Assembly: GCF_018305005.1 (NCBI RefSeq)
Contig: NZ_JAGQEG010000007.1
Span: 1 to 64,000, forward strand
Source of the DNA: Collimonas silvisoli
GTDB lineage: Bacteria; Pseudomonadota; Gammaproteobacteria; Burkholderiales; Burkholderiaceae_D
Length of the DNA stretch: 64,000 bases
Direction of reading: 5' to 3'
Part shown: positions 8,934 to 17,091 of the stretch, in pieces
How the letters are laid out: every line of letters starts with the position of its first letter
Numbering within the stretch: the stretch's first letter is position 1
Translations under genes and position numbers: made by a program
The notes under the pieces: model-generated
What the model was told of the DNA's origin: nothing
What the model saw: only the letters and a program-made list of their open reading frames with translations
Databases searched by the model: none

Positions 8934-9311
8934 TCAGATCTTGCCTTGATCAGTTTCCTGCTGCTCGCGCACCGTCAGCTTGCGATTGGCTTTCTCTTCG
9001 ATCCCGGACAAACCTTCGCGCCGCGCCAGTTCCTGCAGCACATCTTGCGGTGTCAGATTGAACTGGGCCAGCATGATCATCGAGTGGAACCACAGATCGG
9101 CGCATTCGTACAGCACATGGGAAACGTCGCCGTCCACCCGCGCGTCCTTGGCCGCCATCACGGTTTCCGTGGCTTCTTCGCCGATTTTTTTCAAAATCGC
9201 ATCGTCGCCCTTGGAGAACAGACGGGCGACATACGATGTTGCAGGGTCGCCGCCGTTTGCTGGTTTGCGCGATTCAATGACCGCAGCCAGGCGTTGTAGA
9301 GTTTCACTCAT
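8934..9311 (-). CDS. hisE: phosphoribosyl-ATP pyrophosphohydrolase
   Basis: Second step of histidine synthesis: hydrolysis of PR-ATP to PR-AMP and pyrophosphate in the cytosol. The 125-residue product is a stand-alone all-alpha MazG-like enzyme (separate from HisI, unlike the E. coli fusion). It shows [32 protein letters not shown], carrying the EExxE metal-binding helix, and [34 protein letters not shown], carrying the ExxD segment. It is the last his gene, 24 bp after hisI. Confidence 0.96.
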
Positions 9312-9335: not shown

Positions 9336-9730
9336 TCAAGGTTGCTTGTAAATATCATCCGGCTCTTTCAACACCGGTTCGACCGCTTCCCAGCTCTTGC
9401 TATCGTTTTCAAATTTCTGAAAGAAGCAGGAATGGCGGCCGGTGTGGCAGGCGATGTCGCCGGCCTGGGTCACTTTCAGCAACACCACGTCCTCATCGCA
9501 ATCGAGGCGGATTTCATGCACTTTCTGCACATGGCCGGACTCTTCGCCCTTGTGCCACAGTTTCTTGCGCGAGCGGCTCCAGTAAACCGCCTCGCCCAAC
9601 GCCACGGTCTTCGCCAAAGCGTCGCGATTCATCCAGGCGAACATCAATACGTCATTCGACCCGAGCTCCTGGGCAATCACCGGCACCAGGCCATGCTCGT
9701 CCCATCTCACCTTGTTTAACCAGAGTGCGC

Positions 9731-9734
<4 letters not shown>
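9336..9734 (-). CDS. hisI: phosphoribosyl-AMP cyclohydrolase
   Basis: Third step of histidine synthesis: zinc-dependent opening of the adenine ring of PR-AMP. The 132-residue product is a single-domain HisI. Visible are [40 protein letters not shown], the metal-binding [13 protein letters not shown] (Cys-Asp-x-Asp), and the zinc ligands [10 protein letters not shown] near the C terminus. The ATG at 9734 overlaps the hisF stop by four bases (ATGA-type overlap), indicating translational coupling. Confidence 0.97.
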
Positions 9735-10491
<757 letters not shown>

Positions 10492-10495
<4 letters not shown>

Positions 10496-11316
10496 GGCTG
10501 GCCAGCGTCGGGCTGCTCCGATAAGTCTTCGTCGCTGAATTCGCCGCTCAGTTCGTCAGTCAGTTCATCGGCCCGTTCCTGCGCCGAACGCAAATCAAGC
10601 GTGCCTTCATAAATCGAACGACCGCAAATCACCGCCTCGATGCCTTCATCCTGCACCGCGCACAGGGCCTCGACATCCTTGACGTTATGCACGCCGCCGG
10701 AGGCGATCACCGGGATAGTCATGCTTTGCGCCAGCTTGACGGTGGCTTCGATGTTGACGCCGCCCATCATGCCGTCGCGGCCGATGTCGGTGTATACGAT
10801 CGAGGCGCAACCGTAGTCTTCGAATTTCTTGGCCAGGTCGATCACTTCGTGGCCCGACAATTTGCTCCAGCCGTCAGTCGCTACCTTGCCGTCCTTGGCG
10901 TCCAGGCCAACGATGATCTGACCTGGAAACGCGCTGCAGGCATCGTGCAAAAAGCCCGGATTCTTGACCGCGGCAGTACCGATGATGATGTAGCTCAGGC
11001 CGTCGTCGAGATAGCGTTCGATGGTGTCCAGGTCGCGGATGCCGCCGCCCAGTTGCACCGGAATTTCTTCGACGCCGTTGAGCACGGCGAACTCGCGCAC
11101 CGCCTTGATGATGGCCTTGACCGCCGGTTCGTTCTTTGGCTTGCCGGCAAACGCGCCGTTCAAGTCAACCAGATGCAGGCGACGTGCGCCCTGTGCCAGC
11201 CAATGGCGGGCCATTTCGCCCGGATCGTCGGAAAACACAGTGGCTTGGTCCATATCGCCTTGTTTCAGGCGTACGCAGTGACCGTCTTTGAGGTCGATGG
11301 CAGGTATGAGCAGCAT
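10492..11316 (-). CDS. hisA: ProFAR isomerase with an acidic C-terminal extension
   Basis: Phosphoribosylformimino-5-aminoimidazole carboxamide ribotide isomerase, the Amadori-type step before HisF/HisH. The barrel shows [21 protein letters not shown] (catalytic Asp in AIDL), [19 protein letters not shown], and [19 protein letters not shown] with the second catalytic Asp. [14 protein letters not shown] follows, then [12 protein letters not shown]. At 274 residues it is some 20-25 longer than usual because of a Glu/Asp/Ser-rich tail after residue 250 ([19 protein letters not shown]). The DNA there consists of near-repeats of CAGTTCGTCAG. The tail ends in a four-base overlap with hisF. Confidence 0.96.
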
Positions 11317-11392: not shown

Positions 11393-12031
11393 TCAAGGTT
11401 TCCATTGCACAAAGTTCTTGTACAACTGCAAACCGGCACTGGCGCTTTTTTCCGGATGAAACTGTGTCGCAAAAATATTATCACGGCCAACCGCGCAGCT
11501 AAACGCCGCGCCGTATTCGGTCTCGCCGAAAGTATGTGCCGCATTGGCCGGTTCGGCGTAATAACTATGGACGAAATAAAAATAATCCTGGTCGGCAACG
11601 CCATTCCAGAGCGGGTGAGACTGCGCCTGGCGGACTCGGTTCCAGCCCATCTGCGGCACTTTGAAGCGCGAACCGTCGTCTTGCAACTGGCCGTCCAGGC
11701 GGAAGCGCACTACCTTGCCGGGCAACAAACCCAGACCGGCGGTATTGCCCTCCTCGCTCAGGTCGAACAACATCTGCTCGCCGACGCAGACACCCAACAG
11801 CGGCTTGTTGCGCGCCGCCTCCAGCAAGGCTTCCTGCAGCCCGGATTCGCGCAAGCTGCGCATGCAATCCGGCATCGCGCCCTGGCCTGGCAAGACCAGC
11901 CGGTCGGCTGCCTGGATATCGGCAATCGTACCCGAAATAAGGACCTCGGCTTCCGGCGCTACCTGGCGCAGCGCTTGCGCCACCGAGCGCAAGTTGCCCA
12001 TGCCATAGTCAACCACAACAATTTTGTTCAT
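11393..12031 (-). CDS. hisH: imidazole glycerol phosphate synthase, glutaminase subunit
   Basis: Class I glutamine amidotransferase that feeds ammonia to HisF. The 212-residue product begins [21 protein letters not shown]. It has the [10 protein letters not shown] oxyanion-strand region, the nucleophile in [11 protein letters not shown] (about C82), and the His and Glu of the triad in TQFHPEKS near the C terminus. PQMGWNRV and [12 protein letters not shown] are family motifs. It precedes hisA by 76 bp. No ORF lies between it and hisB, where some relatives carry a marC-family gene. Confidence 0.97.
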
Positions 12032-12189: not shown

Positions 12190-12786
12190 TTAAAGACTGC
12201 CTTTAGTCGAAGGAATGGTGCCGGCGGAACGCGGATCCAGCTCCGCGGCCATGCGTAGCGCGCGGCCAAAGGCCTTGAATACGGTTTCGCATTGATGGTG
12301 GGCATTTTCGCCGCGCAGGTTGTCGATATGCAAAGACACCAGTGCATGATTGACAAAACCCTGGAAAAATTCGTGGGTCAGATCGACGTCGAAGCCGCCT
12401 ATCATGGCGCGCTTGAACGGTACGTGGAATTCAAGTCCGGGCCGGCCGGAAAAGTCGATCACCACGCGCGACAGCGCTTCATCCAGCGGTACATAACTGT
12501 GGCCATAGCGGCGGATACCCTTCTTGTCGCCGATCGCCTTGGCAAATGCTTGCCCCAAAGTAATGCCGACGTCTTCCACAGTGTGATGGGCATCGATGTG
12601 CAGGTCGCCATTGGCTTCGATATCCAGATCGATCAGGCCGTGCCGCGCAATCTGATCCAGCATATGGTCCAGGAACGGCACGCCGGTATTCAGTTTTTGC
12701 TGGCCGCTGCCGTCCAGATTGATGGAGACGCGGATTTGCGTTTCGTTGGTATTGCGCGTAATCGATGCAGTTCGAGGCGTAGACAT
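12190..12786 (-). CDS. hisB: imidazoleglycerol-phosphate dehydratase (monofunctional)
   Basis: Dehydrates IGP to imidazole acetol phosphate, in the cytosol, with Mn. The 198-residue product has only the dehydratase domain, without the phosphatase domain of E. coli HisB. The duplicated metal motifs are visible: [13 protein letters not shown] and [20 protein letters not shown], then [14 protein letters not shown]-like (here [11 protein letters not shown]) and [26 protein letters not shown]. The next pathway step would need HisC, which is not encoded anywhere in this window. A 185-bp gap and a hairpin separate it from the methyltransferase gene upstream. Confidence 0.97.
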
Positions 12787-12949
12787 GTTGAGCTTGAGAC
12801 TAAAGTTGCTATGTGATGACGCACAGGCGTCGTGGAGGTAAGTGTACTAAATATTACCGCTTCTCCGCTATTGAAGCTTTGGGGCCGCACCGCCATTTTA
12901 CCGGCATTTTCTGGCTTTCCAGCAAAGAGCCGCCCTTATAATCTTTATC

Positions 12950-12973
12950 GATGTTGCCATCTAAGGCAACATC
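12950..12973 (-). terminator. perfect 9-bp hairpin at the end of the methyltransferase gene
   Basis: Inverted repeat GATGTTGCC (12950-12958) / GGCAACATC (12965-12973) with a six-base loop, overlapping the methyltransferase stop codon at 12972-12974. It is about 165 bp upstream of hisB. No U-run follows in the leftward direction, so it may be a Rho-linked, processing or attenuation structure rather than an intrinsic terminator. Confidence 0.5.
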
Positions 12974-13760
12974 AGGCCAGCGCCCGTTGGTCCGGCTCTT
13001 GACTATCCAGTTGCGCCAGCCGCTGTTCAATCAGCGCGCAATACTCCGGATTCAGTTCAAAACCGACAAACCGACGGCCGCAGCGGCGTGCCGCCACCGC
13101 AGTGGTGCCGCTGCCCATGAAGGGATCCAGCACAATTCCGCCCGGCGGACAGGATGCCTTGATCATGCGCTCGACGATTTCCAGCGGCTTCTGGGTCGGA
13201 TGATCGGCCCGTTCGCGATGTTCGCGGTGCAGGCGCGAGACGCTCCAGACATCCTTCGGGTTGTACCCCAGCTCCAGCCATTTGGCGCCGACAAAAATCG
13301 AACGCGAACGGGCTTTCTTGGTTTCCGCGTCGTAAGGAATGCGGATGGCGTCAAGGTCGAAATAATAGTCTTTGGCGCAGGCAAAGAAACCAATCGTGTC
13401 GTGCACCGACGAAAAGCGCCGGGTGCCGCCGCCCATCGACGGCACCCGCCGGTCCCAGATGATTTCGTTATTCATGATCATGCGCTGCTTCAGCATGACG
13501 AAAATCTCGGGCGAGAAACGCCAGGTCAAAAAGATGTAGAGGCTGCCGTTCGGTTTCAGTTTCGGCAAGGCGGCGTCTATCCATTCTTCGCTCCAGCGCA
13601 GGTAGGCCGCCGTGTCGAGCTTGTCGGAATCGTTGCCGTAATCCTTGCCCAGGCCGTAGGGCGGATCGGCCAGCAGCAGGTCGACCGAACCGTCCGGGAT
13701 ACGCTGCAAACCTTGCAGCGCATCCTCACCATAGACGCGATCGATCCAGTCGTTGCTCAT
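12972..13760 (-). CDS. beta-class N4/N6 DNA methyltransferase, no restriction partner seen
   Basis: S-adenosylmethionine-dependent DNA amino-methyltransferase (N6-adenine or N4-cytosine), 262 residues. The catalytic motif IV ADPPYGLG (31-38) lies near the N terminus. The SAM-binding motif I DPFMGSGTT (212-220) and the following FVGFELNPEYCALIEQRL are C-terminal. This order (IV, target region, I) defines the beta group. HPTQKP (187-192) is a further family motif. The central region about 95-180 should set the target sequence, which cannot be read by eye. No endonuclease gene is adjacent. It sits between hisD (31 bp away) and hisB on the same strand, where relatives usually carry hisC. The ATG at 13760 was chosen; a GTG three codons upstream is possible. 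Confidence 0.9.
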   Translation of the reverse strand: MSNDWIDRVYGEDALQGLQRIPDGSVDLLLADPPYGLGKDYGNDSDKLDTAAYLRWSEEWIDAALPKLKPNGSLYIFLTWRFSPEIFVMLKQRMIMNNEIIWDRRVPSMGGGTRRFSSVHDTIGFFACAKDYYFDLDAIRIPYDAETKKARSRSIFVGAKWLELGYNPKDVWSVSRLHREHRERADHPTQKPLEIVERMIKASCPPGGIVLDPFMGSGTTAVAARRCGRRFVGFELNPEYCALIEQRLAQLDSQEPDQRALA

Positions 13761-13791
13761 AGCTGCCACGTAGGCCCAACTGCAGCCGCTG

Positions 13792-15117
13792 TCATTGAGA
13801 ACTATCTTTCAAGCGGTATTCTGCGGAGCGGGCATGGGCCTGCAAACCTTCACCGTACGCCAGTTCTGCCGCGACCTTGCCCAGTGTCTGGGCGCCGGCC
13901 TCGCTGATGTTGATGATGCTGGAACGCTTCTGGAAATCGTAGACGCCGAGCGGCGACGAGAAACGCGCCGTGCGCGAAGTCGGCAACACGTGATTCGGTC
14001 CGGCGCAGTAATCGCCCAGTGCTTCCGATGAAAAACGGCCCAGGAACATGGCGCCGGCGTGACGAATCTGCTCAGCCCAGCGCTGCGGATTTTCGGCAGA
14101 GATTTCCAGATGCTCAGCCGCGATGTAGTTGGCGATTTCGCAAGCTTGCGCCATGTCGCGCACCTGCACCAGCGCACCGCGATTGGTGAGCGAAGTGCGG
14201 ATCACTTCATGCCGCGGCATCAGCGGCAACTGCCGGTTGATGCTGGCTTCGACGGCGGCGATATATGCGGCGTCCGGGCACAGCAGAATCGACTGCGCCA
14301 GTTCATCGTGCTCTGCTTGCGAAAACAGATCCATCGCGATCCAGTCAGGATCGGTAGTACCGTCGCACAGCACCAGGATTTCAGACGGCCCGGCAATCAT
14401 GTCGATGCCCACCGTGCCGAATACCCGGCGCTTGGCAGCGGCGACATAAGCATTGCCAGGCCCGACAATCTTGTCGACCTGGGGAATGGTGGCAGTGCCG
14501 TAGGCCAGCGCAGCAACCGCTTGCGCGCCGCCGATGGTAAACACGCGGTCGACGCCGGCGATGGCGGCCGCCGCCAGCACCAGCGGATTTTTAATCCCGT
14601 CCGGGGTTGGCACCACCATGATGATTTCCTGCACGCCGGCGACCTTGGCCGGAATCGCATTCATCAATACCGATGAGGGATAAGCCGCCTTGCCGCCGGG
14701 GACGTAGATGCCGACACGGTCCAGCGGGGTGACTTTTTGTCCCAGCACGGTGCCGTCGGCTTCGGTGTAGCTGAAGCCGACGGAGCCGCACTCGATTTTC
14801 TGGCGCTGGTGATAGCTGCGCACGCGGTCAGCGGCGGTCTGCAAGGCGCTGCGGCGTTCAGGAGAAAGCTCGGCCAGCGCCGCCTGCAATTCCTGCCGGC
14901 CGATTTCCAGCAAGCTGACGCTGTTTGCGCTGAGGCGGTCGAAACGATTGGTGTATTCCAGCACGGCGGCGTCGCCACGTGCCTTGACGTCGGCCAGGAT
15001 GCGCGCTGCGGCCTGGTCGATGGCTTCGTCTTCGCTCGCCTCGAACGCCAGCAGCGCAGTCAGTTGCGCCTGGAAATTCGGCAGTCCTGCATCGAGTTTT
15101 CTGATTGCTATGCTCAT
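13792..15117 (-). CDS. hisD: histidinol dehydrogenase
   Basis: Last two steps of histidine synthesis: NAD-linked, zinc-dependent oxidation of L-histidinol to L-histidine. The 441-residue product shows [25 protein letters not shown], the NAD/zinc segment [45 protein letters not shown] (Zn ligands Gln/His), AAEHLEI, and the C-terminal [24 protein letters not shown] short SD-like GGAAG precedes the ATG. It lies 43 bp after hisG in transcription order. Confidence 0.98.

Positions 15118-15160: not shown

Positions 15161-17091
<1,931 letters not shown>

Follow-up and report, generated by a model that had tools for sequence, protein, structure and literature searches.

Solitary adenine methyltransferases and the GTWWAC family

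Dam of Escherichia coli and CcrM of Caulobacter are solitary m6A DNA methyltransferases, as the enzyme considered here appears to be; their targets differ from the one proposed for it. The closest described system is that of Burkholderia cenocepacia, in which the GTWWAC specificity of BCAM0992 was assigned by deletion and SMRT sequencing, the fifth base of the motif being the methylated one; the gene is flanked by trpB and trpA and apparently has no restriction gene next to it, and in Burkholderia the enzyme is described as affecting both motility and gene expression (PMC7364216). According to the same source, the dam gene of most enterobacteria is a close neighbour of trpS (PMC7364216). Every completely sequenced Ralstonia genome is reported to encode an orphan GTWWAC enzyme, which reciprocal BLAST traced across the Burkholderiaceae (PMC5390034), and GTWWAC methylation has been reported in Cupriavidus necator (PMC6742796). 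Differential GTWWAC methylation in Ralstonia is said to correlate only seldom with expression, one promoter excepted, and methylation at one promoter to affect adaptation (PMC11460718).

This article concerns a methyltransferase (MTase) gene in the histidine operon of Collimonas silvisoli, which lies in a 64,000-nucleotide stretch of contig NZ_JAGQEG010000007.1, referred to below as the window. In the account that follows, which we consider quite likely as a whole, the solitary GTWWAC N6-adenine enzyme, known as BCAM0992 in Burkholderia and as RSc1982 in Ralstonia, would have its Oxalobacteraceae orthologue in the product of this gene. The gene would be read with the his operon, and the enzyme would mark GTWWAC sites chromosome-wide without a matching endonuclease. 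The gene would have come once from between trpB and trpA into the hisD/hisC junction of an early member of the Oxalobacteraceae, by relocation or by transfer, and hisC would have been lost from the operon later, in several lineages that include Collimonas, without having been displaced by the MTase.

The histidine operon and its additional gene

The operon lies on the (-) strand, and its order of transcription, which the first-pass annotation had read from hisG onward, is confirmed as murA-hisG-hisD-MTase-hisB-hisH-hisA-hisF-hisI-hisE. The murA-like ORF (15805..17055, named by reading) overlaps hisG by 4 bp and is a conserved neighbour in the Oxalobacteraceae. NCBIfam models confirm hisG (15161..15808; TIGR00070), hisD (13792..15117; TIGR00069) and hisB (12190..12786); the names of hisH (11393..12031), hisA (10492..11316), hisF (9731..10495), hisI (9336..9734) and hisE (8934..9311) come from reading of the proteins and from an order that is conserved in relatives. 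The MTase ORF (12972..13769, on the same strand) has hisD directly upstream, at a distance of 22 bp from its GTG codon (265 aa) or 31 bp from the ATG at 13760 (262 aa), and is separated from hisB by a gap of 185 bp (12787..12971), where most of the relatives examined have hisC. The operon strand, from the end of hisD to the start of hisB, showed nothing like a promoter or a terminator, and transcriptional read-through is therefore likely; the spacing of the genes also suggests that the MTase is co-transcribed with the his operon.

The ORF is intact and, as proposed, encodes a beta-class MTase between hisD and hisB where no hisC is present. PF01555 (N6_N4_Mtase) covers it with an E value of 1.5e-58 over profile positions 1-220 of 221. 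The motifs DPPYG (residues 32-36) and FMGSGTT (214-220) are at the positions originally given for them when numbering starts at the ATG, and DPPY thus precedes the SAM motif, as in the beta-class N6/N4 domain of the GTWWAC orphan family.

Whether the gene is an orthologue of the conserved orphan enzymes of Burkholderia and Ralstonia had been left as something that could not be told by eye; comparison with the B. cenocepacia GTWWAC MTase, to which the Collimonas protein is 68-69% identical, says that it is. Solved structures (8urk, 9c3s and 9c3t) have a sequence that is 69% identical to the Collimonas MTase (residues 3-239 of 242 compared). Over 240 residues this sequence also shares 98% identity with the product of a B. 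cenocepacia gene in NZ_CP091013, and that gene stands between trpB and trpA. We take the enzyme of these structures to be M.BceJIV. The orthology extends over the whole domain, and a clear gap of identity sets the GTWWAC group apart from the next relatives found for the Collimonas protein, which are 39-42% identical to it (42% at most). By this orthology, the Collimonas enzyme is predicted to mark GTWWAC sites.

A methyltransferase without a nearby partner

That no endonuclease is encoded nearby is borne out: none was recognised by eye among the ORFs of at least 80 aa at 5-22 kb and of at least 230 aa at 22.5-40 kb of the window. The enzyme might nonetheless form one half, the modification half, of a restriction-modification system with its endonuclease gene at another place in the genome. 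The PADLOC models that match it best are those of Type II methyltransferases, and the genome has four PF01555 matches besides the MTase and may therefore have restriction systems. Against this, the MTase of relatives is directly flanked by his or trp genes, with two exceptions that are described below, and its orthologues have been published as orphans (PMC7364216, PMC5390034); we regard a distant restriction partner as very unlikely. The Collimonas enzyme is thus probably solitary, judging by orthology and neighbours; for the enzymes of relatives, it is their direct neighbours that speak for such a state.

Two amino-acid operons

Within the family of the window, the Oxalobacteraceae, the MTase is found in 201 of 245 genomes and in 33 of 44 genera, the other 11 genera being without a match. 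In a sample of the order it is confined to this family and to two others, f31 and f10 (18 of 399 genomes); f31, which includes Caballeronia and, judging by g168 rows that are up to 100% identical to the solved sequence, Burkholderia, has it in 111 of 150 genomes, and f10 has it in 22 of 61.

The genomic place of the gene divides these families. (Genes in relatives were labelled by tblastn with the Collimonas genome's own proteins and, for hisC, also with the protein of one relative.) The arrangement in f31 and f10 is trpB-MTase-trpA at all 40 loci (25 and 15, respectively), which span all 14 and 8 genera of these families that have the gene. In the Oxalobacteraceae, where the place was examined in 31 of the 33 genera that have the gene (all except g10 and g42), the arrangement is hisD-MTase: it was found in each of the 37 genomes first drawn and in 41 of the 42 placed altogether (the 37 together with G197, G001, G059 and G087). 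The sole exception is G043, with a copy between trpB and trpA. A further set of 80 loci (the best 80 of 564 relatives, and therefore biased to the Oxalobacteraceae, with species that overlap much with those of the 37) has hisD-MTase at 79, followed by hisC at 58, by hisB at 20 and by the end of the contig at one. The conservation of position in close relatives, the lack of which had been named as a refuting result, is accordingly extensive.

Two copies of the gene lie outside both operons. One, in a metagenome-assembled Janthinobacterium genome (L261, 3998-4891), is the remaining one of the 80 loci and has no his gene near it. The other (L179, 1465-2355) belongs to G087, an incomplete genome that also has a his-located copy, and it adjoins an ORF whose translation resembles a topoisomerase B subunit. 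Both have a longer C-terminal tail.

The missing hisC

On first reading, the MTase had been taken to occupy the position of hisC, its insertion possibly coinciding with loss of the aminotransferase gene. The geometry lends itself to this interpretation: the Collimonas MTase does stand between hisD and hisB, the 20 further loci from whose operon hisC is gone all bear the MTase, and 8 of 11 Oxalobacteraceae genomes without the MTase (one per genus) retain hisC at that place, as hisD-hisC-hisB (of the remaining three, one has a different, inverted hisC, and in two hisD is followed by no his genes in the stretch compared). But the two genes coexist in most relatives examined. The order hisD-MTase-hisC(-hisB) is found in 30 of the 37 loci first drawn (the seven without hisC being three of the genus Collimonas and four others) and, at 58 of the further 80, it is the commonest order among the Oxalobacteraceae loci examined; hisD-MTase-hisC-hisB is the arrangement in most genera examined. 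Comparison of the his loci also separates the two events in time. Absence of hisC from the operon amounts to four changes on the his-gene tree when four rows with unclear or replaced hisC are left out of the count, all of them in MTase-bearing rows (with a frameshifted MTase in one), and the tree sets the MTase-bearing clade deeper than these four changes. That the MTase was inserted in place of hisC, its gain causing the loss of hisC, therefore has next to no likelihood. The hisC slot is real as geometry and wrong as history, because MTase and hisC coexist in most relatives examined and loss of hisC came later and repeatedly.

The window had also been said to encode no aminotransferase at all. 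This holds for the class I/II family, PF00155, which has 33 matches in the genome, none of them on the contig of the window, and it is to be read as limited to that family. The search of the genome for hisC that had been recommended yielded two unlinked homologues that score 351 and 291 bits, where the curated cut-off is 276.55, one in a cluster gyrA-serC-pheA-hisC-tyrA-aroA and the other alone (neighbours named by reading). With two homologues over the cut-off, loss of histidine synthesis is not indicated; presumably, the aminotransferase step is supplied by an unlinked hisC.

The lone hisC (L052, 9118-10203) shares only ~31% identity with the hisC that relatives have in the operon and 34% with the aro-cluster copy, and may, judging by these sequence comparisons, be a foreign replacement. 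Two family members have an inverted hisC of a different type between hisB and hisD, at the usual place of hisC or the MTase (L162, 5991-7046, and L166, 7423-8475), and these are 65-66% identical to the lone hisC of the Collimonas genome (contig C18). In two other members, with genomes of 2.2 and 2.6 Mb (L161 and L163), no his genes were found after hisD in the stretch that was compared; this junction is the one at which the MTase sits in relatives.

A probable passage from trp to his

How did related MTases come to lie in two amino-acid operons? In a tree of the MTase (69 of 164 extracted copies and that of the window; the outgroup row L181, whose branch is very long, was in the first tree only), the his-located copies form one clade (support 96/99). 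Monophyly of the trp-located copies is not rejected (p-AU 0.497), and the MTase tree alone therefore gives no direction. Trees of the his genes (66 rows, none dropped, with two identical pairs, in that used for the hisC count) are more informative, although they come from quick searches with one support value: every his-located row falls into one clade (100), with two rows just outside: G043, which has the trp-located copy, and its sister G029, in which the MTase is absent. This placement is the same with a root of divergent Oxalobacteraceae, which do not form one side of a branch, and with an E. coli root, whose branch is very long. The deepest Oxalobacteraceae rows on the his-gene tree lack the MTase. 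A trpB-trpA tree puts G043 outside f31 and f10, with its place otherwise not settled, which means that its trp copy could be a transfer.

The most likely reading is that there was one early trp-to-his event in the Oxalobacteraceae, by relocation or transfer, followed by several losses of the MTase. Because the gene is missing from deep members of the family, transfer into the his operon out of another lineage accounts for the data no less well than relocation inside a single genome. The trpF-trpB-trpA genes of the Collimonas genome itself (trpB and trpF named by reading) have no MTase inside; trpB and trpA adjoin, and no convincing relic of the MTase gene was found in the gap between them.

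The his and trp settings could instead represent two independent acquisitions of related MTases from outside. Eleven genera of the Oxalobacteraceae that were examined are without the gene and six of their rows lie at the base of the his-gene tree, which, with the unrejected monophyly of the trp clade, is what separate acquisitions might leave behind. Against this, only the three families hold the gene in the order sample; no relative outside the group exceeds 42% identity in 398 genomes of the phylum or in phages; and the plasmid matches of >60% identity are 8 Burkholderia and Caballeronia records. One member of the Oxalobacteraceae, G043, moreover has the gene in the trp setting. We therefore think two acquisitions unlikely. 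A single event remains the preferred reading: the MTase probably passed from one amino-acid operon to another and did not take the place of hisC.

Maintenance and possible regulatory function

The gene is under purifying selection, with dN/dS of 0.02-0.09 across 11 pairs with relatives (dS being >1, and hence near saturation, in four pairs outside Collimonas) as compared with 0.05-0.13 for hisD. It is kept for its product, yet it is dispensable over time, because two genomes of the genus have a frameshift or an in-frame stop in it and 44 of 245 genomes of the family are without it. The frameshift splits the MTase of G197, a single-contig assembly (L158, 5899-6686); the in-frame stop, a single TAG, is in G102, a much smaller genome (1.7 Mb) that still has the gene.

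Two sequence-based tests of a possible regulatory role had negative outcomes. The density ratio of GTWWAC upstream of genes to that within genes is 2.21 in 0.86 Mb of the Collimonas genome (genes having been called crudely, as ORFs), and seven control palindromes of the same composition range from 0.74 to 2.72 (CTWWAG, 2.72; ACWWGT, 2.18); one genome without the enzyme has a GTWWAC ratio of 2.93 (0.4 Mb). There is thus no upstream preference in Collimonas beyond that of control words or of an enzyme-less genome. Nor does a GTWWAC site recur at the start of the his operon: among 117 loci, the intergenic interval that has the motif most often, anywhere between murA and the edge of the locus, has it at 16, and no other intergenic place has it at more than 4.

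A link between DNA methylation and nutrition had been suggested for this locus, and coupling of the MTase to amino-acid supply is a hypothesis. In its full form, the MTase would have stayed in amino-acid operons because its dose must follow amino-acid supply, GTWWAC methylation would record the nutritional state of the cell and the switch of operons would have changed the controlling amino acid. We consider that chain distinctly improbable, but the two operon settings make nutritional coupling testable. Should expression respond to histidine in one family but to tryptophan in the other, the methylomes would be expected to answer different starvation signals, and the change of operon, kept in most of the genera of the family that were examined, offers a ready-made natural comparison.

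Relation to described systems

What we have here is a known enzyme in an operon that is not reported for it in the papers searched. The search found no description of an MTase in the his operon; subscription papers and REBASE, which were mostly outside it, may record the setting. Going by titles, none of the GTWWAC papers found is on the Oxalobacteraceae, and none of the papers found for that family reports a bacterial methylome. The arrangement is real and conserved and its history is corrected: the missing hisC, which tempts one to think of replacement, is a later and repeated loss. The MTase itself belongs among conserved bacterial makers of epigenetic marks.

Its place among these can be stated as follows. 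CcrM is only a distant relative, the Collimonas MTase scoring 114.7 bits with the NCBIfam CcrM equivalog model, against a cut-off of 830 bits. The Ralstonia solanacearum enzyme (RSc1982/RS_RS09960) is described as an orphan of GTWWAC specificity, conserved across the Burkholderiaceae as well as within its genus (PMC5390034, PMC11460718); its marks are reported to prefer regions upstream of genes (PMC5390034), whereas GTWWAC sites in Collimonas have no such preference beyond that of control words. BCAM0992 is the closest match, with the same Pfam domain, 68-69% identity over it, a solitary state and a gene that lies within an amino-acid biosynthesis operon. That operon is trp (trpB-MTase-trpA) for BCAM0992, the specificity of which was determined directly, and his (hisD-MTase) for the Collimonas enzyme, to which orthology assigns the same target.
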